Shown in pieces: positions 17,314-33,898 of a stretch of DNA of 64,000 nucleotides. The notes beneath the pieces were generated by a model that was not told the origin of the DNA, did not search any database, and saw nothing but the letters and a program-made list of their open reading frames with translations. The stretch covers positions 4,250,001-4,314,000 of the forward strand of contig NZ_CP133548.1 of the NCBI RefSeq assembly GCF_031198435.1, read 5' to 3'. This DNA comes from Pleionea litopenaei. GTDB taxonomy: Bacteria; Pseudomonadota; Gammaproteobacteria; Enterobacterales; Kangiellaceae. Position numbers and translations under genes: made by a program. Positions within the stretch are counted from its first letter, which is position 1; each line of letters begins with the position of its first letter.

Positions 17314-18567
17314 TTATTTTACTAGCTTTTCAACTAAAGCCTTTAAGTCATCCATTTCTTTTTTAAGCTCAGAGATTTCTGCATCTTTCTGATCAAGCTT
17401 TTGTTTCAGTGCTTGTATCGATGCTAAAGCAACACCGTTAACGTCTGATACAGATATTCTATCTTTTGCTTCACCGTTTAACCCGAATGCTGCGTGGAAG
17501 TCTTCAGCCATTGGGCCAATATGGAGCGTGTTATCACTGTTTCGAATATAGTTCCACTTCAGAATATCTAGGCTTGCGACAGTGTTTAAAATGTCAAAAA
17601 CATTGATGTTAGAGAAGTTTTCTTTAGAAATTCTGCTCGAAGTATAAGTCGTACCGTTTGCAATTAAGTCACCGCTGATGGTTAGGTTCCCATCGTAACT
17701 TAAGCTGAACTCTTGACCGACACCTGTCGCATTTGCAATACCAAAGCTGCCATCATCATGTCGACTTTGCATGTTCCAACCACTAGGAAGACCAGGGCCT
17801 GGGTTTGTATCTTCAAAAGAAATAATTGAGCCGCCATTGTTAACAATTTTGATACCTCGAACGAAGCCATTCGAAGTGTTGGTATTTTCTAGAGTTAAAA
17901 TAGGCTCCAACGAAGCTACATTTCCTCTTACATGTAAAGGAGATTCTGGGCTAGATGTTCCCATTCCAATTTCGCCGTTGGCTTGAATATCCAACGAGCT
18001 TTCTGGCGCTCCTGGTCGAATTCTAAATGGTAGTCGGCTGCCATTGGTTACGTCGCGAATAAAAAAGTTCGCTTCATTGCCACCGACATCCCACGCTTGC
18101 GAAGTAAAACCTGAAGAACCGTCTTGATCAAGACGCAGTGTTGGCGTGTTGCCATTGACATAGTGTAAGTCGACGGCAGGGTTTAAAGTGCCGAAACCGA
18201 CGTCGCCATCTGATTCAACGACCATTGCATTTGCGCGCGCACCTGCTTCAACCCGAAAAGGAATTCTACCCGCGGTTGCATCTTCAATTGCTAGGTAGCT
18301 CGCGCCACCATTATTGCTGTCGTTAGCAACGATCGTCCAATCGTTACTTGGAAAAGAGCCGCTACTACTGGTGTCGTCAAATTTTAGGCGAGTGTTATTT
18401 TCTTTCATTCTAATGGTATCGAAACCAAAGTTTTCACCATTAACACAGTCATTACCAACACACTCACTGAAGGTAACGATTAAGTCATCATTGATCACTT
18501 GGTCGGCGATGACTAATGCACCAAATAACCCGACGGCAACGGCTGAACTGATTGCTGATTTTCTCAT
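17314..18567 (-). CDS. Exported protein with S74-type intramolecular chaperone domain
   Basis: This is a 417-residue protein. The N-terminus MRKSAISSAVAVGLFGALVIADQ looks like a signal peptide. Residues 40-290 hold at least two similar beta-rich blocks (NDWTIVAND..GGASYLAIEDAT..RIPFRVEAGA and QAWDVGGNEANFFIRDVT..RLPFRIRPGA). The region at about 305-385 matches Peptidase_S74: SSRISKENFSN, LKWNYI, HIGPMAEDFHAAFGL and VNGVALASIQALKQ. The last 35 residues form a predicted coiled coil. S74 domains trimerise phage tail spikes and some bacterial surface proteins and then cut themselves off. A clear ribosome site (AAGGAGAAGG) precedes the ATG. The function is unknown. Confidence 0.82.
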   Translation of the reverse strand: MRKSAISSAVAVGLFGALVIADQVINDDLIVTFSECVGNDCVNGENFGFDTIRMKENNTRLKFDDTSSSGSFPSNDWTIVANDSNNGGASYLAIEDATAGRIPFRVEAGARANAMVVESDGDVGFGTLNPAVDLHYVNGNTPTLRLDQDGSSGFTSQAWDVGGNEANFFIRDVTNGSRLPFRIRPGAPESSLDIQANGEIGMGTSSPESPLHVRGNVASLEPILTLENTNTSNGFVRGIKIVNNGGSIISFEDTNPGPGLPSGWNMQSRHDDGSFGIANATGVGQEFSLSYDGNLTISGDLIANGTTYTSSRISKENFSNINVFDILNTVASLDILKWNYIRNSDNTLHIGPMAEDFHAAFGLNGEAKDRISVSDVNGVALASIQALKQKLDQKDAEISELKKEMDDLKALVEKLVK

Positions 18568-19280: not shown

Positions 19281-22200
19281 GTGGATTTTCATTCAGCAGG
19301 AAAGCAGTCTCGCAGGTTTTTAAAATCATTAATCTTATTATCATCAGCAGGCATCAGTGGCGCTTTATGGGCGGTTCCCCCAAGCTTCTCCACCAGCTTT
19401 AACTCCTCCACCATTGGCCCGGGCAACGAGTCAACCTTGACTTACACCATTACTAACGGTGATAGCTTCGCAATTACTGATTTAGCGTTTTCCAATACGC
19501 TGCCTGCAGGGGTGACTATTTCGGCTAACCCAAATGCGAGTTCGACGTGTTTAAATGGATCGTTTTCTGCTCCTGCCAACGGAACGACCATATCGATCGC
19601 CGACTATGCCGTCGAACCTAACTCAAGCTGCAATGTAACGGTCGCTGTCACCGCGAGTGCCGCCGGCAGTTACAGCAATGTGACGGATGATTTGACGTCG
19701 AGCGAAGGCAATAGTGGAACAGCCTCAGCGACGTTAACGGTTGATACTGGACGCCCTAATATTGAGCTATCGATCACACCTAGTTCAATGAGTCGTGGTG
19801 ACATCGCCCAAGTACAGGTGGTTTTCGATAATTCACTCAACGGTTCGTTAGAATATAACTTTCAGTCGACCATCAGTTTACCTGGCGGATTAGCCGTTGC
19901 AGATTTTCCTGACGTGCAAACAACTTGTACCAACACTTCCGTGACGGCTAACTCAGGTTCAGACGTAGCAACCATTACCCCCACCGGAACCATGACGCTG
20001 GGCGCAGGAGCGAGTTGTACATCAACGTTTAATGCAGTCGCCACTGGGGTTGGAAGTTACCTGGCAACCAGCAGTTTAACCTATCTCGATTCAAATACTT
20101 TTACGAATACCGTCGCGGGCTTTTCATCTGCCAGCGTTGATATTGCGACGTCAGCTGCATTAATTTCATTTTTGAATAATCCGGTCGCTCCGGGAAGTTC
20201 GACCGACCTAGAAATTACCTTGGCCAATACTGACCGGTCGAACTCAGTGACCAATGCCGCTTTTACGATTGATTTAGATGCCGCGCTCTCAGGCTTAGTC
20301 GCAACTGGTTTACCGCTTTCCGATATCTGCGGCAGTGGCTCGTCAGTATCTGGCACGTCTGTTTTATCGTTTACGGGAGGAGCGATCTCTGCGGGCAGCA
20401 CTTGTACCTTTACTGTCCCCGTTACTGTGCCGGGTGGAGCGGCCGTCGGCACCTATACTGGCACTAGTTCAGACATTACCTGGGATATTGGTGGTAGCGG
20501 TGAAGTGAAAAGTGGTGCCAATTTTTCATTGAGTATTACGCAAGCACCAACTTTAGCGATTAATTTTGTTGATAGCGATGCAGTCGGGGGCGGCTCGACC
20601 AACGTCGAATTTACCATTACCAATACAGACTCTGCTAATGCGGCGACGGCGATCACATTTCGAGCGAGCATCAGTGACTTAGTTTCCGGCTCGTCATTTT
20701 CAAGTTTACCGGCGAGTGGCTATTGTGGGGCTGGCTCTACGGCCAGCCAGGCGGTTATTACCGATGAGCTATACTTGCTTGTCTCAAACGCACAGTTAGC
20801 GGCTGGAGCAAGTTGTACTTTCACCGTAGGTATAAACATTCCTCAAGGCGCGCCAGCCGGAGTCTCAACGCTTCAGTCGTCGGACTTTTCTGCCACAGTG
20901 AATGGCTCGACATTAACCGGAGAAACGGCAAGTGACAGTATTAATATTGTGGGTGGACCATCACTCAAGTTAGCATTAAGTGAACTATCGATTAATCCAG
21001 GCGATACAACGACGGCAACCTTTACTCTGGCTCACAGCGCCAGCGCTTCAGCGAACGCAACAAGCATGGCTTTCACGCTTGATCTTGATGCGGCCATCTC
21101 AGGTTTAACAGCGGTTGGTCTGCCTTCTGTAGATGTGTGTGGTACGGGCTCGCAGATCAGCGGTACGAGTACTTTAACGTTTACCGGTGGAAGTCTTGCT
21201 CCCAATGAAACCTGTAGTTTTGATGTCACATTACAAACCCCCGGCAGTGTTAGTTCGAATATATATACGCTTACGACTAGCAGCCTTGACGCTCAAGTCT
21301 CAGGGCTATCAACGTCTTCGATAGCGGGCTCAGCGTCTTTGCAGGTGTCGAACCTCGAGGCTGCCATGGCGTTTACTAATCTGCCGGTCGCGCCTGGTGG
21401 AACCGCGAATTTAGAAGTAACTTTAACTAATGCTAGTGCGACAGAAGCGCTAAGCGCTGTCGTGTTTACTTCGAGCATTTCGAGTACGCTAAGTGGAATG
21501 ACGGTCACCGGATTACCCGCCAACGATATCTGTGGTGCTGGTTCACAAGCGACTGGAACAACTACTTTGATAGTAAACAATGGCAGCCTAGCGGCGGGCG
21601 GAAGCTGTACTTTTACCTTGAGCTTAAGTGTTCCTGGCGGAGCCAGCGATGGTACTTATCCATTGGTAACCAGCAATATTGGCTTTACTGAAAATGCGGT
21701 CAATATCAATATCAACAAAATCAGTACGACTTTGATCGTAGAAACGGATGTTGCGCCCAATGTCACTTTAACATCATCCGCTTCACCCAGTACCAGTGTC
21801 AGTCCGATTCCTGTCTCGATGGTGTTCAACGAAGATGTGACGGGATTTGATGTTTCCGATTTAACCGGCAGCGTCACCAATGGTTCCTTGAGTAATTTTC
21901 AAGCAATTTCAGCGTCTGAATACTCGGTCGATATAACCCCGGCAGCAGCTGGAGACGTTACGCTGCAAGTTCCGGCGAGCTCTGCTATCGACAGTGGAAC
22001 CAATGGTAACAATGTATCTGATGTACTTACGATTACCTATGATCCCGTTGCATTTATTCTTCCGACGGCTGTCATTGGCGCTCCGGATCAATCATTGACC
22101 AATACAGGACCGGTTAATTTTGCGGTTACTTATTCTAATGCTGATCAGGTGAGTCTTGATGATGTCGAAGTGGTTCTGGTGACCACAGGCACGGCAACCG

Positions 22201-25200
22201 GTGATGTCTCGGTAGCGAATGGAAATACGACAACGCCAACCGTTACCTTGTCAAATATTACAGGAGAAGGAAGCATTGCCATTAGCCTGACGTCAGGCAC
22301 CGCTCGAAACAGTTTTGGAAATGCGGATGCGGTTGGCACAAGCGCGGCATTTAATGTTGATAATACGGCTCCGGATGTGTCGATCTCTTCGGCAGCACCT
22401 GATCCCACCAATGCTGCTTTTGATGTGACGTTTACCTTTACTGAAGCGGTTAATGATTTTGTAAATACCGATGTTACAGCATCAAACGCGTCGGTTTCGA
22501 CCTTATCCGGTGGCCCGGTTGTTTATACCGCAACAATAACGCCAGACACGGACGGAACCGTGACATTGGATGTACTCAACTCTGTTGCTTCAGATAGCGC
22601 AGGAAATGGCAACACCGCCGCAACCCAATATAGCGTTCTGTACGATGCAACGGCACCCAGCGGGTATGATATCAACATTGACCAATCGTTTATTAATGCG
22701 GCCAATGATACGGCGATGAGTTTTAGTTACACCGGAGCCGAAGTTGGCGCTGATTATAATTATTCGGTCTCTGACGGATCGTCCCAAGTTTCTGGCGTTG
22801 GTACCATCGCGAGCGCGAGTGATAGCGTCACGGGTATCGATGTGAGTGGGTTGGCTGAAGGAACCTTGACATTAACCTTTGTGTTAACGGACCCCGTTGG
22901 AAACATGGGTGTTGCGATTACCGATACCGTAATCAAGCAATACAATGATGCACCCGTGATCACCGAGGGAGCCACCATCACGGTTAACATGAGTGAAGAT
23001 AGCACTCCTACCGCATTTAATTTAACGTTGAATGCAACGGATCCAGAAAATGAAAGTTTAACTTGGAGCGTGATTTCATCGGCGATCAATGGTGTAGCGG
23101 ATGCGACGGGCACAGGCAACAGCCAAGTGGTCAGCTATACGCCTCTTGCGAACTACAACGGCAGCGATAGCTTTGTGGTTGAAGTGACTGACAATAATGC
23201 GCTTGAACCTTTGACCGATAGTATTACCGTTACCGTACAAATCACGGCGGTCAATGATGCTCCGACATTTACGTCCAGTGCTCCAGTCGTAGTGGCTGAA
23301 GACGCACTTTATACGTATTCAATAACGACAAACGATATCGATGCTGGTGATACATTAGCGATTACTGCGAGTGTTATCCCTTCGTGGTTGAGTTTAGTCG
23401 ATAATGGTAATGGCACGGCAACCTTAGCTGGCTCTCCAACCAACGATGATGTCGGTGTGCACTCAGTTACTCTTTTGGTAACTGATAGCAGTGGTGCATC
23501 GGACAATTCCGCGACACAAAGTTTTAGTGTGGCGGTTTCTAATACCAATGATGCACCGACCTTTACTTCAACTCCGGTGACGGTCGCGACGGAAGATCAG
23601 GCCTACAGTTACGCTGTCACTGCCGCTGATATCGATGTGGGTGATAGCATCGCGATCACCGCGACAGTATTACCAAGTTGGTTGACATTAGTCGACAATG
23701 GAAATGGAGCAGCGGTCTTATCGGGTACGCCACTCAATGAACACGTTGGAAATCACTCGGTTACCTTAGTCGTGACCGATGATAGCGGTGATGTAAACGA
23801 TACCGCGGCTCAGTCATTTGTTGTTGCGGTGGCCAATACCAATGATTCTCCCTCGGGCTTGCCAGTTATAACGGGGACTTTGCTACGGAATGAAACATTA
23901 ACCGCAGACACCTCTGGGATCAGTGATGACGATGGTTTGGGAACCTTTAGTTATCAGTGGTTGCGAAATAGCAACCCAATCGCGGGTGCTTCATCCGCAA
24001 CATACACGCCGGGCGTTGATGATGTCTGGCAAATACTGAGTGTAACGGTTTCGTACACTGATTTAGGTGGCAATCCAGAATCGTTAACCAGTGCTCCAAC
24101 TGGCGCAATTTCTGATCTCGATTCGGATGGTGATGGAATTTACGATTTAGAAGAGGGAACTGGCGACAGTGACGGTGACGGTACTCCTGACTATTTAGAT
24201 CCCGACAGTGATAATGATGGTATCCCTGATTCTGAAGAGGGAACTGGCGATAGTGATGGCGATGGCACTCCAGACTATTTAGACACGAGCCTCGATGAAG
24301 ACAGTGATGGTATTCCAGACATTATTGAGTCGGAGAGCAACCGCGATACCGATGGTGATGGTTTGCGAGATTTTGAAGATCCTGACAGTGATAATGACGG
24401 ACTAACTGACTTAGAAGAATCGGGAGTTTCAGGTATCGATACCGATGGTGACGGTATCGATGATTACTATGATGTTGATCAAACCGGAGGTGTCGACGCT
24501 AATGGTGATGGCATTGATGACGCGGTCATGCCACTCGACTCTGACAATGACGGCATTCCTGATTACATTGATCGCGACAGCGATAATGATGGCATTCCCG
24601 ACGCTTTAGAAAATGAGTTTGCTTTCCGAACCGTGAGTTTGAGTAAAGCTATGAGCTACCAGAGAATGATGGCCATCGATACCGACGGTGATGGAATCTT
24701 AAATCATGTTGATCCAGACAGTGACAATGATGGTTTGAGCGACGCGATTGAAGCGCAAATCGTTATGGTGGATACAGACGGTGATCAAATCATTGATCAG
24801 TTCGATGTTGACGTAACCGGAGGTGTTGATGCCAATCAAGATGGTGTCGATGACAACGCAACACTCGTAAATTCTGATAACGATAATACACCCGATTTGT
24901 TAGACCTAGATTCCGACAACGATGGTCGGTTTGATATCGTTGAAGCGGGATTAATTGATAGTGACTTTGATGCGTTGATTGATAACCCAACCGATGCAGT
25001 TGTTATCGCGCCCGATACGGATAATGACGGCACACCAGATTACCTCGACCTTGATAGCAATGATGACTCAACCTGGGATATCGAGAGCACTGGAGCGGCG
25101 ACTCTCGATCTAAATGGTGATGGGCAAATTGATGATGCATCGAGTGACCCAGACAACGATGGTATTGTCGATCCGCTCGATGATGAGCCTAATCAGTTTG

Positions 25201-26513
25201 GAACTCAGCCAGATCGCGATGGTGATGGTGTTCCGGGTCGTATCGATCGAGACGATGATAACGACGGTATTTCCGATGTTGCTGAAGGCTTGCTTGATAG
25301 TGATGGAGATGGACTGATCGATGCGTTAGACAGTGACAGCGACAATGACGGATTGAATGATGCGTTTGAAACGGATCGTCCTCGGTTAAGTGGCATAGAT
25401 ATCGATCGCGATGGTATTGACGACGCTGTTGATGTTGATTTTGTGGGCGGAAATGACAGCGATAATGACGGTGTCGCTGATCAGTTTAGGCTTGCTGATA
25501 CAGACGGAGATGGCACGCCTGATTATCTTGATACTGATAGTGATAACGACGGGATTTCAGACCAAGAAGAGCAACTGACGGTAATTCTTGGTGGAACTGA
25601 TGTCGATAATGATGGACTGGATGATGTCGTCGATGCGACGCAAACCGCAGGAGATGACGCAAACGGTGATGGACAAGTTGATCGTTCGATTGACTCGTCA
25701 GACTTAGATGGCGATGGTTTACTTGCTTTCCGAGACAGCGACACCGACGGCGATGGTATTGCCGATGGTGATGAGAATGGCGATTTCAATAATGATGGTA
25801 TTAATGATCGCTTACAGACCGATCCCGGAGTATCTGTTGACTCAGGTAGCGGCTCTGTTGGATGGATGATGTTAGGGTTGTTGGCTCTGTTTCCATTGCG
25901 CAAACGCAAAAAAGGTAAGACAGATTTAAAACTGCCTTTTGCTCGCATATGGCTGGGTTCATTTGTGTCGTTTATTGCATTGAGTGTTCCTAGTCTCGTC
26001 AGTGCCGATGACCAATGCTTACGTGAACAAAGTTCATGTTGGTATCTTGGGTGGGGTATTGGTCGCGCGCAACATGATATCAAAGATGGGCAAAGTGCTT
26101 GGAAGGTGAGTGACAATGATGGTCAATACGGCACAGTATTTGTGGGTGTCGACTTTAGCTCTCACTTATATTGGGAATTAGCGTATGAACAGTTAGGGCG
26201 TGTTCAACTTCGAAACCAAAATCCAGCCATTAATGTACCTGGCAGTGTTCGCTTCGACAGCTTGAGTACATCATTGGGTGTATGGTTAAGACCGCACTCT
26301 GCGGACTGGAATTTAGGTCTGTCGGCGGGTATTTCGGTGAGAGATGAGAAACCTCAAAATGTTCAATTTAATAGTGGTGATGACTCTATGGTAATGTACG
26401 GAGTAGCTGTGAAATGGAGCGTGACAGAGACCACCGATATTAAAACCAAGTTTACCTATTATGATAACGATACAAATGTCTTTGGCGTGTACCTAATTCA
26501 AAGATTTGACTGA
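19281..26513 (+). CDS. Giant multidomain surface protein with TSP3 repeats, sorting-like segment and C-terminal beta-barrel
   Basis: This is a 2410-residue exported protein starting at GTG 19281, behind AAGGGGG. A signal peptide with a twin-Arg-like start (residues 1-31) is followed by several DUF11-like beta repeats of about 130 residues (to about 840), each with a CGSGS..SG motif. Ig-like and cadherin-like domains follow (about 845-1610; APTFTSTPVTVATEDQAYSYAV type). Thrombospondin type 3 repeats rich in DSDGDGTPDYLD follow (about 1612-2185). At 2189 there is GSGSVGWMMLGLLALFPLRKRKK, which resembles GlyGly-CTERM/rhombosortase-type sorting tails. Instead of ending there, the frame continues with a second signal-like helix (to about 2243, SADDQC) and about 165 residues of beta-barrel-like sequence ending in RFD. 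An adhesin or matrix role is likely. Confidence 0.85.
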   Translation: MDFHSAGKQSRRFLKSLILLSSAGISGALWAVPPSFSTSFNSSTIGPGNESTLTYTITNGDSFAITDLAFSNTLPAGVTISANPNASSTCLNGSFSAPANGTTISIADYAVEPNSSCNVTVAVTASAAGSYSNVTDDLTSSEGNSGTASATLTVDTGRPNIELSITPSSMSRGDIAQVQVVFDNSLNGSLEYNFQSTISLPGGLAVADFPDVQTTCTNTSVTANSGSDVATITPTGTMTLGAGASCTSTFNAVATGVGSYLATSSLTYLDSNTFTNTVAGFSSASVDIATSAALISFLNNPVAPGSSTDLEITLANTDRSNSVTNAAFTIDLDAALSGLVATGLPLSDICGSGSSVSGTSVLSFTGGAISAGSTCTFTVPVTVPGGAAVGTYTGTSSDITWDIGGSGEVKSGANFSLSITQAPTLAINFVDSDAVGGGSTNVEFTITNTDSANAATAITFRASISDLVSGSSFSSLPASGYCGAGSTASQAVITDELYLLVSNAQLAAGASCTFTVGINIPQGAPAGVSTLQSSDFSATVNGSTLTGETASDSINIVGGPSLKLALSELSINPGDTTTATFTLAHSASASANATSMAFTLDLDAAISGLTAVGLPSVDVCGTGSQISGTSTLTFTGGSLAPNETCSFDVTLQTPGSVSSNIYTLTTSSLDAQVSGLSTSSIAGSASLQVSNLEAAMAFTNLPVAPGGTANLEVTLTNASATEALSAVVFTSSISSTLSGMTVTGLPANDICGAGSQATGTTTLIVNNGSLAAGGSCTFTLSLSVPGGASDGTYPLVTSNIGFTENAVNININKISTTLIVETDVAPNVTLTSSASPSTSVSPIPVSMVFNEDVTGFDVSDLTGSVTNGSLSNFQAISASEYSVDITPAAAGDVTLQVPASSAIDSGTNGNNVSDVLTITYDPVAFILPTAVIGAPDQSLTNTGPVNFAVTYSNADQVSLDDVEVVLVTTGTATGDVSVANGNTTTPTVTLSNITGEGSIAISLTSGTARNSFGNADAVGTSAAFNVDNTAPDVSISSAAPDPTNAAFDVTFTFTEAVNDFVNTDVTASNASVSTLSGGPVVYTATITPDTDGTVTLDVLNSVASDSAGNGNTAATQYSVLYDATAPSGYDINIDQSFINAANDTAMSFSYTGAEVGADYNYSVSDGSSQVSGVGTIASASDSVTGIDVSGLAEGTLTLTFVLTDPVGNMGVAITDTVIKQYNDAPVITEGATITVNMSEDSTPTAFNLTLNATDPENESLTWSVISSAINGVADATGTGNSQVVSYTPLANYNGSDSFVVEVTDNNALEPLTDSITVTVQITAVNDAPTFTSSAPVVVAEDALYTYSITTNDIDAGDTLAITASVIPSWLSLVDNGNGTATLAGSPTNDDVGVHSVTLLVTDSSGASDNSATQSFSVAVSNTNDAPTFTSTPVTVATEDQAYSYAVTAADIDVGDSIAITATVLPSWLTLVDNGNGAAVLSGTPLNEHVGNHSVTLVVTDDSGDVNDTAAQSFVVAVANTNDSPSGLPVITGTLLRNETLTADTSGISDDDGLGTFSYQWLRNSNPIAGASSATYTPGVDDVWQILSVTVSYTDLGGNPESLTSAPTGAISDLDSDGDGIYDLEEGTGDSDGDGTPDYLDPDSDNDGIPDSEEGTGDSDGDGTPDYLDTSLDEDSDGIPDIIESESNRDTDGDGLRDFEDPDSDNDGLTDLEESGVSGIDTDGDGIDDYYDVDQTGGVDANGDGIDDAVMPLDSDNDGIPDYIDRDSDNDGIPDALENEFAFRTVSLSKAMSYQRMMAIDTDGDGILNHVDPDSDNDGLSDAIEAQIVMVDTDGDQIIDQFDVDVTGGVDANQDGVDDNATLVNSDNDNTPDLLDLDSDNDGRFDIVEAGLIDSDFDALIDNPTDAVVIAPDTDNDGTPDYLDLDSNDDSTWDIESTGAATLDLNGDGQIDDASSDPDNDGIVDPLDDEPNQFGTQPDRDGDGVPGRIDRDDDNDGISDVAEGLLDSDGDGLIDALDSDSDNDGLNDAFETDRPRLSGIDIDRDGIDDAVDVDFVGGNDSDNDGVADQFRLADTDGDGTPDYLDTDSDNDGISDQEEQLTVILGGTDVDNDGLDDVVDATQTAGDDANGDGQVDRSIDSSDLDGDGLLAFRDSDTDGDGIADGDENGDFNNDGINDRLQTDPGVSVDSGSGSVGWMMLGLLALFPLRKRKKGKTDLKLPFARIWLGSFVSFIALSVPSLVSADDQCLREQSSCWYLGWGIGRAQHDIKDGQSAWKVSDNDGQYGTVFVGVDFSSHLYWELAYEQLGRVQLRNQNPAINVPGSVRFDSLSTSLGVWLRPHSADWNLGLSAGISVRDEKPQNVQFNSGDDSMVMYGVAVKWSVTETTDIKTKFTYYDNDTNVFGVYLIQRFD
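24118..25820 (+). repeat. Coding repeats for thrombospondin type 3 calcium-binding motifs
   Basis: Dozens of degenerate copies of a GAT/GAC-rich unit encode D-x-D-x-D-G-x-x-D loops within the giant surface protein. Units such as SDGDGTPDYLD recur almost exactly at 24171 and 24255. Copies vary in spacing (11 to about 25 residues), so this is a protein-level repeat and not a DNA satellite. Each loop is expected to bind calcium and stiffen the stalk. Confidence 0.85.
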
Positions 26514-26587
26514 TAACGAAGTAACCGATTAATCATAAGTTAATTTGGCAACTCAAAGGGTTGTCCTTTAAAACCAAAAATAAACAG

Positions 26588-26624
26588 GCTGCTCAGATTT
26601 CTAAATGAGCGGCTTTTGTTTTTT
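26588..26624 (+). terminator. Rho-independent terminator after the giant surface protein
   Basis: An eight-pair stem (GCTGCTCA with TGAGCGGC, one G-U pair, loop of 10) is followed by TTTTGTTTTTT. It lies 75 bases behind the stop and 16 bases before the next gene. Confidence 0.75.
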
Positions 26625-26639
26625 AAACCTAGGGAATAG

Positions 26640-29600
26640 ATGATGACAATAAAAAGTAAACTAACCTATATTTCATTAGCTGCATCTCTTCTGGCATCTT
26701 TTCCTGCCTTAACGGCACAGCCAGTAGATACCATTATCAACGAAATTAAAGAGCTAGAGAAAAATCGAGACCCAAAATGCTATGCAACGGCATCACGATT
26801 AGAAAACTTTATGTTTGGTACGCCACTTACCAGCGATGCAAGGTTTAACAAAAATCTTTCTCAAAAAGAATGGGCGAGAGGCGTCTGGAAGCACGCGTCG
26901 GCAATCGCAAAGAAACAAGGGAAAACAGAAGTTAGTAAAGATGTGTTAATGCAAGCAATTGAAGAAAACTTCAAGTTTTCTCAGGGCGCGGATGGTCATT
27001 GGACAGTGACGTTTCCTAAGAATAGAGAAATTCGAATTAATCAAGTGGATAAACGACACTACTCAACGGTTGCTTATGCCTTAAGAGCAATATTGGCCGT
27101 TCAACAAGAAGCTTTACTGAGTGGTGATAGCACTCTAATTCCGCTAACGGATGATGCGGTCAAAGAGTTTAAAGAGAGTTTGGATTTTTTAAGTTTGTCG
27201 GTCTTAAAAGTAGCCGACACGCAAGCTCGAAATGATAATCAATATGAAGTGTCATTGAATCTTTTTAACGATACTTGGAGAGCATTGGCTGGTAATAAGT
27301 TTGAAAAAATAAACAAACCTACCATTGCGACGAATGCACCTGTTTCATTAGCCTTAGTTAAAAAGATTATTGCCCAAAAGGTAGCTTCTTATAAGGTGTA
27401 CAACAATATTGCTAATCAACTTTTTGTGAGAAACCTGCAAGTTTACTACGCGCGTCTAACGTGGCCTGAAGGTGAGCAAGAAGGTGCCAGTTTTAAGAAC
27501 TTATTTGAAAAAACTATGATTCAATTTGCGCACGATATCTATGTCGGTGCTGAAAAAATTGCTATCAAAAATGGGCACTCAGTGATTCAGGAGAGTGATG
27601 TTAGCGAACTTATGGAAGTCTTTATTCCTCATCAAATAGATGAATATGAAGATGCGGTATTCTTTTATCACTTGCCGCGCGACGAGCAAATAAAACTTGA
27701 AGCTTATGATATGGATTCCTTTCGTGACAGTGGCATTCACTGGCGGTATTTGGAATATGTGATCGATAACCCTTCATTTGTCTCTTATCGACAGCCAGAT
27801 CCTTTCGCATTAGAGCTAATCGTAGAAAATATTGCTCAGTTTGGTGTATTAAGTTTACGTGTCGCTGGTATGGTTGGTAAAGAAAAAGGCGCAGAACGCT
27901 TAAGTGAGTCTTTGTATATTGAAGGTTTAAAAAGAATCCAAAGCAAGATCAATAAGCACGTAGCAACCACACCAGAGCAAATTAAAACGAACCAGCTCGC
28001 ATCAGCGACAGAGGCGAAAACGTCCGTCAATTCATCTGGAAAGATGTTCACTGACGTATCTTCTCAAATGGGTGTTGATCATCTACATCGTTCTGCAGAT
28101 TGGTTAAATCGATTGCTTCGCAGTTACTTAAAGAAAACCGATGAGGTTGGTGTGATCACAATTCCTCCTGCATTTGGTGGAAGTGGTGTTGCTGCTGAAG
28201 ATCTTAATAACGATGGCTACATGGATCTGTTAGTGCTTAGTGGCATGGGTAATAAGCTGTATCTCAATAGAGAAGGTAAAAGGTTCGAAGACGTAACAGA
28301 GAGTGCTGGCTTAAACTGGATTCGTGAAGAAGACAATTTACCAGGTGAAGTACGACAACCCATCATTGCTGATTTGAATAATGATGGACTTCAAGACATC
28401 GTTATCACTTACGTCAATGATAAGCATCGAGTATATCAAAATCTTGGAAATGAAACCTTTAAAGACGTTACTAATATTGCTTCACTTGGTGGCGTAGGTT
28501 TAATTGGCGGGCCTGCAACGGTCGCCGATTTTGACAATGATGGCTTACTGGATATTTATGTGACCTACTTCGGACACTACACCAAAGGAATTCTTCCAAC
28601 TTTAAAACGACGAAATGACAACGGCCTTCCGAACCAATTATTTAAAAATATTGGGGGGTTTAAGTTTAAGAATGTGACCGCTGGCAGCGGCACAGACAAC
28701 ACTGGATGGACGCAAGCCGTCGGACATACTGATTTCAATAGAGATGGTTTACAAGACATTATTGTGGGTAATGATTTTGGAGTGAATGCCTACTTGCAAA
28801 ATATGGGTAACATGAAGTTCAAAGATGTGTCGAGTGACATAGGAACGGATAAACCATCATATACGATGAATATAGGCATTGCCGATTTAAATGCTGACCT
28901 ATACCCAGACATTTATATTTCTAACATTGTGACCATGAATAAAGATGAGAAGTACGTTCTACCAAATGAAGACACAACGATGAAGTTTAATGCTGAAAAA
29001 CTTGCCAATATGCGAGTCGTTGAGGCAAATGACCTGTTTTTGTCGGGATCAAATACCAAAGGAGAACTTCAGTATCAATTGAGTGATGCCGTAGGGCGAG
29101 GGTATTCCTCTACAGGTTGGTCATGGGATGCAGACTTCTTTGATTTCGATAATGATGGTGATAATGATCTTTATGTACTGAATGGAATGAATGAGTTCAA
29201 TATTTATTCTAGCCGAAATCCTTACTATCAAGATCCCAACGATAAGGCGATGAAAGACATATTGATGCCTGTATCAGATAAAGAATCGAACGTCTTTTTC
29301 ATTAATCAAGGTGGTCGATTGCTCAACCAATCAAAACTATCAGGATTAGACTTACTCGGTAACTCGCGAAGTGCTGCTTATCTTGATTTTGATAATGATG
29401 GTGATTTAGATATCGCGATGAATAACTTCCATGAAAAAGCCAACTTTTTTGTGAACAACTTATCGCGACCAGAGCACAACTGGTTGAAAATTAAGTTAGA
29501 GGGTGATCCAAGTAAAGGTGTCAGTCGAGATGCGGTAGGTGCGACGATTCTTGTGTATACCGAAAGCGATCAGATTATTTGGCGCGAAGTTCATAGCACT

Positions 29601-29777
29601 ATCGGATACCTTTCTGTGCACCCAAAGGAACAGCATGTCGGATTAGGCGCCGCGCAAGTTAAGAAGATAGAAGTACTGTGGCCGAATGGGAGTAAGCAAG
29701 AGTTTTCGGGTTTAAAGGTGAATAAACAATACCTACTTAAGCAATCCGGACAAGCACTAGAGTTTGCTAAAAAGTAA
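26640..29777 (+). CDS. Exported FG-GAP/VCBS repeat protein with ASPIC/UnbV domain (CRTAC1-type)
   Basis: This is a 1045-residue protein with a Sec signal peptide (residues 1-26, cut after ALTA). Residues 30-460 are a helical domain that I do not recognise. It contains three similar helix-turn-helix stretches near 80-108, 295-328 and 402-433. From about 468 a beta-propeller of FG-GAP repeats follows (FGGSGVAAEDLNNDGYMDL, PATVADFDNDGLLDIYVT, IGIADLNADLYPDIY), with DxNxDGxxD calcium loops. The C-terminal 90 residues are an ASPIC/UnbV domain (VGATILVY..REVHSTIGYLSVHP..HVGLGAAQ..VLWPNGSKQ). The start may be ATG 26640 or 26643. The next gene follows after one base. The role is probably in cell-surface or periplasmic binding. 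Confidence 0.87.
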   Translation: MMTIKSKLTYISLAASLLASFPALTAQPVDTIINEIKELEKNRDPKCYATASRLENFMFGTPLTSDARFNKNLSQKEWARGVWKHASAIAKKQGKTEVSKDVLMQAIEENFKFSQGADGHWTVTFPKNREIRINQVDKRHYSTVAYALRAILAVQQEALLSGDSTLIPLTDDAVKEFKESLDFLSLSVLKVADTQARNDNQYEVSLNLFNDTWRALAGNKFEKINKPTIATNAPVSLALVKKIIAQKVASYKVYNNIANQLFVRNLQVYYARLTWPEGEQEGASFKNLFEKTMIQFAHDIYVGAEKIAIKNGHSVIQESDVSELMEVFIPHQIDEYEDAVFFYHLPRDEQIKLEAYDMDSFRDSGIHWRYLEYVIDNPSFVSYRQPDPFALELIVENIAQFGVLSLRVAGMVGKEKGAERLSESLYIEGLKRIQSKINKHVATTPEQIKTNQLASATEAKTSVNSSGKMFTDVSSQMGVDHLHRSADWLNRLLRSYLKKTDEVGVITIPPAFGGSGVAAEDLNNDGYMDLLVLSGMGNKLYLNREGKRFEDVTESAGLNWIREEDNLPGEVRQPIIADLNNDGLQDIVITYVNDKHRVYQNLGNETFKDVTNIASLGGVGLIGGPATVADFDNDGLLDIYVTYFGHYTKGILPTLKRRNDNGLPNQLFKNIGGFKFKNVTAGSGTDNTGWTQAVGHTDFNRDGLQDIIVGNDFGVNAYLQNMGNMKFKDVSSDIGTDKPSYTMNIGIADLNADLYPDIYISNIVTMNKDEKYVLPNEDTTMKFNAEKLANMRVVEANDLFLSGSNTKGELQYQLSDAVGRGYSSTGWSWDADFFDFDNDGDNDLYVLNGMNEFNIYSSRNPYYQDPNDKAMKDILMPVSDKESNVFFINQGGRLLNQSKLSGLDLLGNSRSAAYLDFDNDGDLDIAMNNFHEKANFFVNNLSRPEHNWLKIKLEGDPSKGVSRDAVGATILVYTESDQIIWREVHSTIGYLSVHPKEQHVGLGAAQVKKIEVLWPNGSKQEFSGLKVNKQYLLKQSGQALEFAKK

Positions 29778-29778
29778 T

Positions 29779-32067
29779 ATGAGAAAAATAGTGTTACTCA
29801 TCGTAATGAATGTTGCGATGTATGTTAGTTTAGTGGAGGCTCAAGAGTATCTTGAGCCTCCACTACTACCCAAGACTGAAAAACAGCTGTTTAAACAGTG
29901 GGAGCGAGTTGCATCTACACGCGGTAAAGCAGTGAAAGAAAGCCTAGAAACCGAGGGGCTTTATTTGAACCAACTCATCAATAGCTCTTCTCCCTATTTA
30001 TTACAACATGCCTTTCATCCAGTGAACTGGAAGCCATGGAGTACCGATGTTTTTAATTCGGCGAAGTCAAGCGGTCACTTGATTGTTCTCTCTATCGGTT
30101 ATTCAACATGTCATTGGTGCCATGTAATGGCAAGAGAGAGTTTTTCTGATGAAGAGGTCGCGACAGCAATTAACAAAGATTTTTTAGCCATTAAAGTTGA
30201 TCGCGAAGAATTACCAAACATTGATCATTATTATAAAAGCTTGTTAGAAGTCGCAAAAGGAACGGCAGGCTGGCCTATTACGGTCGTTATTGATTCAAAT
30301 GGCACGCCAATATTTATCGACAGCTATCTGACAAAACAACAATTGTTGAATCTGCTTCCTCGCCTGGCTAAATTATGGAGGGATAATCCATCCTTTTTAT
30401 TAGCTACCGGAAAAATGCTTGAAAACTCGCTATCGAAGAGTGATGTGAATCGTGGCTCAGATAAAAAGTTGTTAGCGTTAGATGAAGTAATTGAACGATT
30501 GAGTAATAACTTTGATTCGGTTAACGGTGGAGCTCAAGGGAACACTAAATTTCCCAATGAAGTGATGCTGAATTTTTTAATTAACTCTCTTCGATGGGCC
30601 GAACCTAGCAATCGAATCAGTGAACTAAATAACAATAAAGTTGCGAATTTTCTTGAAGGTACGCTCGAAATGATATCGAGTAGAAATTTAAGAGATCATA
30701 TAGAAGGTGGTTTTCATCGATATGCAACCGATAGCGAATGGCTAGTGCCCCATTTTGAGAAAATGCTTTACAATCAAGCTCAACTATCTTTAGTGATGCT
30801 GGAATATTCCCGATTTTCAAATCAGGAATCGTATCTTAATATAGTTAATGAAACATTGAGTTTTATTTTGCGGGCAATGTACCATAACGATAAAGGGTTT
30901 TATTCAGCCTTAGATGCGGAGCTAGAACAAACGGAAGGTGGATTTCATACCTTCAGTAAAATAGAGTTGGAATCGTTGGATTTAAACCTAGAAGGCGTAG
31001 TGATAACGCCCTTCAAAGATCGTTTTATCGTTTCATTTGTCGACGCAAATACAAAAAGTAAAGCGATAATGCAGTTGCATCAACAGCTGTTAACCATACG
31101 ACAATCAAGAGCGTCACTTCATCGTGATGAGAAAATCATTACTTCTTGGAATGCGTTGACCGTCAAAGCTTTCGCTCGTTCCTATATCGTTCAACACAAC
31201 CAAGAGCATCTCTCTATATCAAAACAAATAGCAGAACGACTATGGCATCGCTTTGACAAGCAAGAAGGGACGTTAATGCGCTTGTCGGATGATTCTAATA
31301 AGACGCCCTATTTATTGTTAGAAGACTACGCGTTTTTAGCGGATGCGTTCATCGAGCTGTATGATGCTACCAGTGACAGACTTTGGCTCAACCGTGCAAC
31401 AACATTGTATGGTGTTCTAGAGCATAAGTTTTATCAAGACGATGGGACGCTATTGGCAAGCTATCCTCACCAAGCTGGTATCGCCAATGTTCGCTTACTC
31501 GATGATGAAGTAATGACGCCTGCTGCAGTGGTCGTCGAAGTTGCCGAAAAGTTGCATCGTCGTGGGACATTAAAAGCACCAGAAAAGAGAATTCCTCAGC
31601 TACTTAATCGACTGACATCTGTTGTGAATGAACAACCTCAGGCAACTTTAGCACTGGCTGACGCTTTGTACCGGTTGAAATTTGGAAGTCGTCAAAGTGT
31701 GCGCTACTTTGCGCAAGGTTTTGGCAAAGTTGTCTCGAAATGCATGGAGGTTGTATCCAACCGATGTAATAAGATGTCCTTCGATATTCAGTTAGCAGAA
31801 GGTTGGCATATTAACTCAACCCACCCGAAACAAGATTATTTGCTGCCGACCGTGGTTCAAAATGTGAGTGACACTAAGATTGAGTACCCTGCAGAGCGCT
31901 TAGTTAAGTTGGGTTTCGAGAAAGAGCCTTTAAGTGTCTTTGAAGGTTCTTTTTCAATCAAGCTCTATAAGCAAAAAGACTTCGCTACCCAAGTTATTGA
32001 ACTTCCTTTACAAGCTTGCAGTGACTCCATCTGTTTACAGCCTGAGCGATTGAGCTTTCGTTTTTAA
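29779..32067 (+). CDS. Exported DUF255/YyaL-type thioredoxin-like protein with DsbD-N-like C-terminal domain
   Basis: This is a 762-residue protein. A signal peptide is present (MRKIVLLIVMNVAMYVSLVEA). Residues about 58-190 are a DUF255 thioredoxin-like domain: LINSSSPYLLQHAFHPVNW, then CHWCHVM with Cys111 and Cys114. Residues 220-640 look like the alpha-helical barrel of YyaL/SSP411 proteins (GGFHRYATDSEWLVPHFEKMLY). The last about 115 residues resemble the N-terminal domain of DsbD: LAEGWHINSTHP, and a Cys747-Cys752 pair followed by LQPE, like the active site of that domain. A periplasmic redox role is inferred. ATG 29779 is preferred over the in-frame TTG at 29764. It is cotranscribed with the FG-GAP gene. 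Confidence 0.85.
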   Translation: MRKIVLLIVMNVAMYVSLVEAQEYLEPPLLPKTEKQLFKQWERVASTRGKAVKESLETEGLYLNQLINSSSPYLLQHAFHPVNWKPWSTDVFNSAKSSGHLIVLSIGYSTCHWCHVMARESFSDEEVATAINKDFLAIKVDREELPNIDHYYKSLLEVAKGTAGWPITVVIDSNGTPIFIDSYLTKQQLLNLLPRLAKLWRDNPSFLLATGKMLENSLSKSDVNRGSDKKLLALDEVIERLSNNFDSVNGGAQGNTKFPNEVMLNFLINSLRWAEPSNRISELNNNKVANFLEGTLEMISSRNLRDHIEGGFHRYATDSEWLVPHFEKMLYNQAQLSLVMLEYSRFSNQESYLNIVNETLSFILRAMYHNDKGFYSALDAELEQTEGGFHTFSKIELESLDLNLEGVVITPFKDRFIVSFVDANTKSKAIMQLHQQLLTIRQSRASLHRDEKIITSWNALTVKAFARSYIVQHNQEHLSISKQIAERLWHRFDKQEGTLMRLSDDSNKTPYLLLEDYAFLADAFIELYDATSDRLWLNRATTLYGVLEHKFYQDDGTLLASYPHQAGIANVRLLDDEVMTPAAVVVEVAEKLHRRGTLKAPEKRIPQLLNRLTSVVNEQPQATLALADALYRLKFGSRQSVRYFAQGFGKVVSKCMEVVSNRCNKMSFDIQLAEGWHINSTHPKQDYLLPTVVQNVSDTKIEYPAERLVKLGFEKEPLSVFEGSFSIKLYKQKDFATQVIELPLQACSDSICLQPERLSFRF

Positions 32068-32185
32068 TAACCAAAGTTGCTAAGCATATAGCCAGTATTC
32101 AGTGTTTTCGCGCGTTAGATACTATGGTAAAATCGCGCACGTTTTATCCAGTCAGTACACACTTTGATTAATAAAGGAACAATCA

Positions 32186-33898
32186 ATGTCCAATTTGAAT
32201 GCCCCTCATGGTGGTGAGTTAGTCGACCTCATCGCATCTGAACAACAACTAGAAGGTTTAAAGTCTGAAGCCGGTAACTTAGCTTCTTGGGATTTAAGCC
32301 ATCGTCAGTTGTGCGATATTGAATTATTGTTGAATGGTGGTTTTTCACCATTAAATGGATTTATGACAGAAAGTGATTATCAGTCAGTTTTAGATAATAT
32401 GCGCTTAGCCGACGGTACTTTATGGCCGATGCCAATCACCCTAGATGTCTCTGAAGATTTTGCGGCCAAGGTTGCGGTTGGCGATAAAGTCACGTTACGT
32501 GATCCTGAAGGCGTGGTGATTGCGGTTCTTGAGCTATCTGATAAATGGGTACCGAACAAGACCGAAGAAGCAGAAAAAGTTTATGGTGCGGCCGACGAAG
32601 CACATCCCGCGGTAAACTATTTGTTCCATAAAGCGGGCAATGTTTATTTAGGTGGTAAGGTAATCGGGTTAGAGCTACCCAATCACTACGATTACAAAGC
32701 ATTGCGCGACACGCCTGCAGAGCTTCGTGCCAAGTTCGCGAAATGGGGCTGGCGTAAAGTGGTGGCGTTCCAGACGCGTAACCCAATGCACCGTGCGCAT
32801 CAAGAGCTAACATTCCGTGCGGCGCGTGAACAAGAAGCCAACCTATTAATTCACCCGGTTGTAGGTATGACCAAGCCTGGTGATATCGATCATTACAGCC
32901 GCGTTCGTTGTTATGAGCACATTTTGAATCAGTACCCGGAACAAACCACTATGTTGAGTTTGTTACCCTTAGCAATGCGAATGGGTGGCCCACGTGAAGC
33001 TTTATGGCATGCGATTATTCGTAAGAACTATGGCTGTACTCATTTGATTGTCGGCCGTGATCACGCTGGCCCAGGTAAAAACTCTCAGGGTGAAGACTTT
33101 TACGGTCCGTATGACGCTCAAGAATTATTGCAGCAACATGAAGAAGAACTCGGCATTAAAATGGTGCCTTTCCAAATGATGGTTTATGTGAAAGAAAAAG
33201 CCGAATACATGCCGATTGATGATGTTGAAGAAGGCATGACGGTTCTTAATATTTCTGGAACCGAAGTTCGTCGTCGTTTACAAGAAGGTTTAGAAATCCC
33301 TGATTGGTTCTCTTACCCAGATGTTGTTGAAGAGTTACGTAAAACCAAACCCCCTCGTCACAAGCAGGGCGTCACCGTTTTCTTTACTGGACTATCGGGT
33401 GCCGGTAAGTCAACCATCGCCAATGCGTTAATGGTTAAATTGCTTGAAATGGGCGGTCGCCCGGTGACTTTACTTGATGGTGATTTGGTTCGTAAGCACT
33501 TATCGAGCGAATTAGGTTTTAGTAAAGAGCATCGTAACATCAACATTTTGCGTATCGGATACGTGGCCAGTGAAATCACTAAAAATGGTGGTTTTGCGAT
33601 TTGTGCTCCTATTGCCCCTTACAAACAAACGCGTCGTGAAGTTCGCGAAATGATTGAAGAGCAAGGTGGATTTGTTGAAGTGCATGTGGCGACTTCTCTC
33701 GAAGAGTGCGAACGCCGCGATCGTAAAGGACTGTATGCATTGGCACGTGAAGGTAAGATTAAGGAGTTCACAGGAATATCCGATCCTTATGAAGCACCAG
33801 AAACGCCTGAACTTTATATCGACACCGTCGATTGTACCCCTGATGAAGCGGCACAGCGTGTGTTGTTAAAGCTTGAAAGCATGGGTTTTATTAAGTAA
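32186..33898 (+). CDS. Bifunctional sulfate adenylyltransferase / APS kinase (Sat-CysC)
   Basis: This 570-residue enzyme makes APS from ATP and sulfate and then phosphorylates it to PAPS. The sulfurylase domain (1-390) has FQTRNPMHRAHQE near residue 195 and VGRDHAGPGKNS near 290, both active-site motifs of the homo-oligomeric (Sat) type. The APS kinase domain starts near 395 with the P-loop GLSGAGKSTIANAL and continues with LLDGDLVRKHL, CAPIAPYK and EFTGISDPYEAPE. AATAAAGGAAC precedes the ATG. The fusion supplies PAPS either for assimilation or for sulfotransferases; the glycan cluster in this window has one. Confidence 0.95.
   Translation: MSNLNAPHGGELVDLIASEQQLEGLKSEAGNLASWDLSHRQLCDIELLLNGGFSPLNGFMTESDYQSVLDNMRLADGTLWPMPITLDVSEDFAAKVAVGDKVTLRDPEGVVIAVLELSDKWVPNKTEEAEKVYGAADEAHPAVNYLFHKAGNVYLGGKVIGLELPNHYDYKALRDTPAELRAKFAKWGWRKVVAFQTRNPMHRAHQELTFRAAREQEANLLIHPVVGMTKPGDIDHYSRVRCYEHILNQYPEQTTMLSLLPLAMRMGGPREALWHAIIRKNYGCTHLIVGRDHAGPGKNSQGEDFYGPYDAQELLQQHEEELGIKMVPFQMMVYVKEKAEYMPIDDVEEGMTVLNISGTEVRRRLQEGLEIPDWFSYPDVVEELRKTKPPRHKQGVTVFFTGLSGAGKSTIANALMVKLLEMGGRPVTLLDGDLVRKHLSSELGFSKEHRNINILRIGYVASEITKNGGFAICAPIAPYKQTRREVREMIEEQGGFVEVHVATSLEECERRDRKGLYALAREGKIKEFTGISDPYEAPETPELYIDTVDCTPDEAAQRVLLKLESMGFIK

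Follow-up and report, generated by a model that had tools for sequence, protein, structure and literature searches.

How does a large exported protein whose surface stalk ends in a sorting tag come to continue, in the same reading frame, into a second signal segment and an outer membrane barrel, and what becomes of the two halves? The question is raised by one gene in a 64,000-nt stretch of the Pleionea litopenaei genome (NZ_CP133548.1, positions 4,250,001 to 4,314,000), hereafter called the window, whose first letter is position 1. An earlier note on this DNA had read the gene as two exported proteins joined in one, and had offered two fates for the product: cleavage that parts an anchored stalk from the barrel, or a barrel that is its own anchor. 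We favor, with a probability of roughly 0.8, a polyprotein on which rhombosortase and signal peptidase each make one cut in the inner membrane, yielding a lipid-anchored surface stalk and a barrel partner in a 1:1 ratio.

A single reading frame joins a tagged stalk to a barrel

Positions 19281..26513 of the window (plus strand, as for all parts of this gene) form one uninterrupted open reading frame of 2410 aa, which runs through stalk, sorting tag, linker, second signal and barrel to a TGA stop codon (26511..26513). The order of these parts is observed directly, and the earlier description of a sorting-like tail followed in frame by a second signal and a barrel is borne out. The frame opens with an N-terminal signal peptide read from the sequence, SRRFLKSLILLSSAGISGALWA, followed by VPP (19281..19373, boundary set by eye). 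The surface stalk (19374..25844) carries DUF7933, Big_12, Big_9, He_PIG and cadherin-like domains and then Asp-rich TSP3-like repeats, on which TSP3_bac scored 16.0 bits only (cut-off 25).

The internal GlyGly-CTERM sorting tag (25845..25910) has all three parts of such tags, a Gly/Ser motif, a hydrophobic helix and basic residues. The GlyGly-CTERM model TIGR03501 scored above cut-off on the tag region and 14.3 against 15.5 on the whole protein, and the 200 residues that follow the tag set it apart from an extreme C-terminal placement with 0–5 residues after it. The tag has no cysteine, and the MYXO-CTERM model TIGR03901 gave at most 19.6 bits on it (cut-off 20). By analogy with VesB, as described in the accessible text of PMC6219818, rhombosortase would be expected to cut at the Gly-Ser motif that opens the tag. 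The basic linker RKRKKGKTDLKLPFAR (25899..25946) overlaps the tag end and is predicted to be cytoplasmic from the charge pattern of the junction set described below. It is followed by the second signal segment IWLGSFVSFIALSVPSLVSA (25947..26006), where signal peptidase I would probably cut after VSA. The mature barrel (26007..26510, 168 aa) is OmpA-type: Pfam OmpA_membrane or OMP_b-brl scored above cut-off, and the structure model shows the matching fold with eight strands, one of them drawn as two pieces. It shares 14% identity with the transmembrane domain of E. coli OmpA, which is encoded as a separate gene. The window protein ends with the barrel, with no OmpA cell-wall-binding domain after it, and a terminator scan of 26400–26760 found none. 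A separate second barrel of the same family lies elsewhere in the window genome (L066, G000:C1:3942284-3942784; 183-aa frame, E 4.4e-10).

The fusion recurs in relatives

The same fusion was found in relatives, where the earlier note had proposed to look for it. The window tail matched 17 of 40 genomes of the family. A profile of 15 tails (alignment A1) matched 22/40 family, 117/394 order and 68/369 class genomes, many of these matches being ordinary OmpA-type genes. Eighty-five loci were fetched, most of them for a long frame or a match over the full length, with two split barrels among them. A script with a loosely defined Gly/Ser motif recognized this motif, the first helix, the basic linker, the second helix and the barrel in 72 of the 85, from 56 genomes. 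Three more loci (L117, L119 and L145) fit by eye, giving 75 Gly-type fused loci in 58 genomes, window included. Four further fused loci had a JDVT-CTERM tag in place of GlyGly-CTERM; L093, L131 and L134 are of the JDVT type and were kept out of the Gly-type counts. The unfused loci among the 85 were L054 (a fragment), L124, L125, L135 and L142, together with the split barrels L052 and L053. L136 was Gly-type by the script, yet matched no tag model.

When named genomes were scanned for the window tail itself, no relative was confirmed, in a search that may leave out near records. A1 had no stretch conserved enough for such a scan, so a second alignment that includes the stalk end (A2) was used and its best 80 matches were taken. 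Among the matches listed, the arrangement occurs in named genomes including Steroidobacter gossypii (L162) and Marinibactrum halimedae (L175) and in bins of Woeseiaceae, Oleiphilus and Granulosicoccaceae. It is also present in L155, whose bin carries the label Rhodothermales; the contig may be misplaced.

The stalks vary in type. Among ten stalk pieces, matches above cut-off were to Big_9/cadherin (two), to DUF11, fn3 and TSP3_bac, and to an InlB B-repeat accompanied by a legume-lectin match; of the remaining pieces, one had a weak HYR match under cut-off and three were unmatched. Several fused genes can occur in one genome (four in G407, four in G669 and three in G761, as script-classified loci). 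L054 (G003:C34:6056-6394), from the genus of the window, is a short frame in which a stalk-end-like stretch runs straight into mid-barrel with neither tag nor second signal, and is perhaps the remnant of a fused gene. L135 (G587:C79) and L142 (G654:C9) have same-family barrels near the N-terminus of the frame, followed by 497 and 439 more residues. The outer membrane barrel model TIGR04565 (OMP_myx_plus) matched five of the 15 A1 fused tails at E ≤ 1 (best 2.5e-7), which, judged from the model name, may hint at a link to myxobacterial barrels.

A second tag and protease pair shows a similar pattern

Some fused stalks end in a GC...DP..PLL-like motif, and ten fused tails were tested with the NCBIfam JDVT-CTERM model (cut-off 27). 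Six scored above cut-off (L093 31.2, L131 34.1, L134 34.0, L164 41.8, L178 33.4, L244 32.5), two scored below (L176 11.9, L226 25.6), and L186 and L136 were unmatched. The JDVT-CTERM protease MrtJ was found above cut-off in all three JDVT-fusion genomes searched (G473, G542 and G609), compared to two of 15 other, hand-chosen fused genomes (G705 and G709; P 0.012). One of these two, G709, itself encodes a JDVT stalk in split form.

The genes also lie close together. In G609 and G709, a TSP3-rich JDVT-CTERM protein (43.9 and 46.0 bits, respectively), a barrel and MrtJ are encoded consecutively, and in G542 the barrel gene and MrtJ overlap by 4 nt. On the rhombosortase side, the gene for a giant protein with a Gly-rich terminal tag in G684 (called by eye; no model match) overlaps the rhombosortase gene, and next comes a barrel gene in convergent orientation whose product has an OmpA domain; in G705 rhombosortase lies 41 nt downstream of the fused gene. 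Stalk, barrel and protease therefore recur together, fused or separate.

Gly-type fusions co-occur with rhombosortase

A rhombosortase gene, which the earlier note had suggested looking for, is present in the window genome (TIGR03902, 151.5 bits, cut-off 84) at G000:C1:4234620-4235072, ~15 kb before the window. At E 10 or below, TIGR03501 matches nine times in that genome. Six of these proteins end 0–4 residues after the tag, and the other three matches comprise a false one within a membrane protein, one without a locus and the internal tag of the window.

In the class sample, rhombosortase scored above cut-off in all 23 genomes with a Gly-type fusion, compared to 126 of 369 overall (hypergeometric P 4e-12) and 22 of 41 with only unfused barrel matches (Fisher P 3e-5 versus fused), these P values, like the others given here, being too small owing to genome relatedness. 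Class-sample hits in frames of at least ~475 aa were checked for this comparison, and no fusion was present in those of G445, G749, G454:C7 (two hits), G590 (three hits), G691 and, on the 9-kb side, G669:C5. Unfused G445 has no rhombosortase, and G576 carries a JDVT-type fusion (32.5 bits), hence its place outside the unfused group. The four genomes with JDVT-type fusions have rhombosortase as well. In the order sample outside the window's own family, it was present in 20 of 20 fused genomes, against 231 of 394 in the order sample overall. Within the family it occurs in 38 of 40 genomes, so that the family cannot test the link between fusion and protease; among its 16 fused genomes only G027 (55% complete) gave no match above cut-off.

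These data bear on the reading in which there is a single cut, with signal peptidase freeing the barrel while the stalk either stays in the inner membrane on its intact tag helix or is released by some other protease. The accessible text of PMC3237569 places GlyGly-CTERM tags at the end of the protein, where at most five residues follow the helix, so an internal tag might not be accepted by rhombosortase. TIGR03501 is also weak or silent on many fused tails, matching at E up to 1 in four of the 15 A1 rows and, on three other fused tails, scoring above cut-off (L119), below it (L084) or not at all (L117), with the consequence that many tags were called by eye or by the loose script. Against a single cut, one Gly of the motif is invariant across the 15 A1 rows, every Gly-type fusion of the class sample and of the order sample sits in a rhombosortase-positive genome, with G027 of the family sample the sole exception, and JDVT-CTERM with MrtJ repeats the pattern for a second tag and protease. 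We consider a single cut very unlikely.

Charge and cleavage motifs at the junction

Junction statistics were taken from 69 distinct junctions of the 72 script-classified loci, with L109 excluded since the script had mis-set its first helix. The net charge of the linker averaged +3.65 and was +2 or more in 68 of 69, compared to mean charges of –0.33 for the ten residues before the first helix and –1.17 for the ten residues after the second. This is the pattern expected for a predicted out-in-out topology. An [AVSG]xA motif followed the second helix in 62 of 69 junctions, compared to 66% of shuffled windows (P 5e-6), and strict AxA in 35 of 69, compared to 31%. Four named loci among the matches listed, all from Granulosicoccaceae (L176, L178, L186 and L226), have a second segment that ends in a lipobox instead, as would a working lipoprotein signal. 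The four may reflect one event; one of these tails scored above the JDVT-CTERM cut-off, two scored below it and one was unmatched. None of the 69 Gly-type junctions had a lipobox by a stricter test, which does not count the label given to L044 by the looser script.

If translation started again within the linker, two proteins would be made and a cut at the tag would not be needed. In-frame ATG, GTG or TTG codons are present in 62 of 72 linkers, and in 12 of 72 a start is preceded by an SD-like motif, including G023, G039 and G026 at a locus next to a gene that we take to be tuf. However, an ATG is found in 28 of the 72 only, ten have no start codon at all, and the window linker has three TTG codons, none with an SD-like motif. 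The frame also stays open across the junction. In close pairs, dN/dS there was 0.09–0.18 in six of nine, one pair had no replacement change and dS was saturated in two, so the open frame through the junction is under purifying selection in close pairs. An internal start is very unlikely, and we set it aside as a general explanation on the start-codon counts.

The remaining fate offered by the earlier note, in which the protein stays uncut and the barrel acts as the outer membrane anchor of its own stalk or as an autotransporter-like exporter, has less support than cleavage. The order of passenger and then barrel is indeed that of autotransporters. The translocator barrels of autotransporters (type V) have twelve strands, whereas the window barrel is OmpA-type with eight. 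Two hydrophobic helices and a positive loop separate stalk from barrel, and the split relatives described below encode the two as separate proteins. On fold and topology we set aside the self-anchored and autotransporter readings, which we regard as highly improbable. Of the two fates, the one with more support is cleavage that leaves the stalk anchored and sets the barrel apart, as a predicted rather than an observed event.

Split orthologues at a shared locus

In one genus, at the single syntenic locus beside the presumed tuf gene, the arrangement is fused in G023, G039, G026 and G024, whereas G021 and G037 have it split, with a barrel gene that has its own ATG and signal-like start and overlaps the stalk gene by 14 nt. 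The split stalk of G021 ends SGGSSSVILLIMLMTMLITRRLKRGYINDFK, with a nearly identical ending in G037; its tag was called by eye, TIGR03501 giving 12.7, under cut-off. The TSP3-like stalk end in G021 (L033) also matched NF047638 weakly, at 24.3 bits against a cut-off of 350; this model describes a TSP3-repeat protein of myxobacterial cell-cell cohesion, and the match probably reflects shared repeats only.

In an unrooted barrel tree of 109 rows (78 fused, 31 separate; 108 different), built by a quick method, the split barrels of G021 and G037 are sister to those of fused G023, G026 and G039 (support 99), within a mostly fused clade. The fused or separate state needs at least nine changes on this tree, five of them forced by well-supported branches. 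Joining or splitting has occurred several times. The idea of two exported proteins joined in one gene is borne out. The two relatives with two genes recall the missed stop by which the earlier note thought its reading might fail. A missed stop or a sequencing error has a negligible chance of being right, and we reject it, because G004 of the window's genus is fused with its gene order unchanged, the split relatives' own genus has four genomes fused at the same locus, and the fusion recurs in 75 loci of 58 genomes.

Proposed processing and relation to known systems

We infer both cuts, the lipid, the export routes and the partnership of stalk and barrel, as follows. The first signal peptide would lead the stalk through Sec until the GlyGly-CTERM helix stops transfer, so that the basic end of this helix stays cytoplasmic. 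Re-entry into the membrane would come with the second signal segment, which would lead the barrel through Sec. Rhombosortase would cut at the Gly-Ser motif, and the new C-terminus of the stalk would gain a lipid-type group, as in VesB. Signal peptidase would cut the second segment, releasing the barrel to the outer membrane, and the leftover would be a short two-helix piece. Stalk and barrel would be supplied 1:1 by one gene and might be partners of one surface adhesin, like TraA and TraB, an idea that we base on the 1:1 complexes of these two proteins.

In VesB of Vibrio cholerae, according to the accessible text of PMC6219818, cleavage leaves the second Gly exposed, and the protein receives a glycerophosphoethanolamine-containing group ahead of type II secretion. 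VesB and other V. cholerae GlyGly-CTERM substrates have the same three-part tag and the same protease family as the window protein, but their tags are C-terminal with neither second signal nor barrel, as far as the accessible text of PMC6219818 and PMC13393428 goes. TraA and TraB of Myxococcus xanthus are a tagged surface adhesin and its partner barrel, which form 1:1 complexes and whose genes overlap by 4 bases (PMC3325183, PMC12045341, accessible text), compared to 14 nt in the split relatives here. They differ from the window protein in being two genes and in having MYXO-CTERM and a PA14-like head, and we liken them by architecture, not sequence. As TraB-like traits, four loci (L017, L018, L019 and L032) have an OmpA cell-wall domain after the barrel, above cut-off, and L018 has a TSP_3 match before it (24.9, cut-off 25).

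The closest precedent is MXAN_5598 of M. xanthus, an adhesin with an internal MYXO-CTERM, a barrel and an OmpA domain, which its authors liken to TraA plus TraB and for which they suggest a two-gene fusion and processing of the N-terminal part (PMC11980579, accessible text). The accessible text of that report names this one protein, contains no survey and mentions internal MYXO-CTERM motifs as rare. MXAN_5598 and the window protein share a large adhesin-like stalk, an internal sorting tag and then an outer membrane barrel. MXAN_5598 carries MYXO-CTERM and an OmpA cell-wall domain and goes with MrtX, a myxosortase of the glutamic intramembrane protease type, whereas the window has GlyGly-CTERM and rhombosortase and no such domain. 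Since MXAN_5598 has been described, the arrangement is not new in kind; new here are the rhombosortase and JDVT/MrtJ versions, the breadth, the split relatives and the gene clusters. The accessible, mostly non-subscription literature on these tags and proteases yielded no published internal GlyGly-CTERM or JDVT-CTERM with a barrel. Non-terminal sorting tags are reported to be functional in LPXTG and ArtA substrates (cited in the accessible text of PMC11980579), with different enzymes and organisms.

More tentatively, and at somewhat below even odds, these genes may represent a general class of surface polyprotein: contact receptors or adhesins that, like TraAB, have two parts but are synthesized as a single chain, which is then cut by an intramembrane sorting protease and signal peptidase I or II. 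Such a class would have a fixed 1:1 ratio, at least two tag and protease pairs (GlyGly-CTERM/rhombosortase and JDVT-CTERM/MrtJ) besides MYXO-CTERM and several kinds of stalk, and would be widespread in Gammaproteobacteria. If the double-cut reading is right, rhombosortase and MrtJ would be able to act on internal tags, and there would be secreted bacterial polyproteins whose pieces leave by separate routes, as a surface stalk and an outer membrane barrel. A set of tagged surface proteins would also have a named barrel partner, which could explain how their stalks are held or presented, and a TraAB-like role would become testable far beyond myxobacteria.

The fused gene is flanked just upstream, on the opposite strand (17314–18567, minus), by a gene whose 417-aa product contains an endosialidase chaperone domain (Peptidase_S74). 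After it, 26640–33898 encodes an FG-GAP/UnbV_ASPIC protein (1045 aa), a DUF255 thioredoxin-like protein with a DsbD_N-like end (767 aa) and a bifunctional sulfate adenylyltransferase/adenylylsulfate kinase (570 aa). Judged by length and N-terminus, these genes seem to follow in the same order behind the fused gene of G004 (L153).
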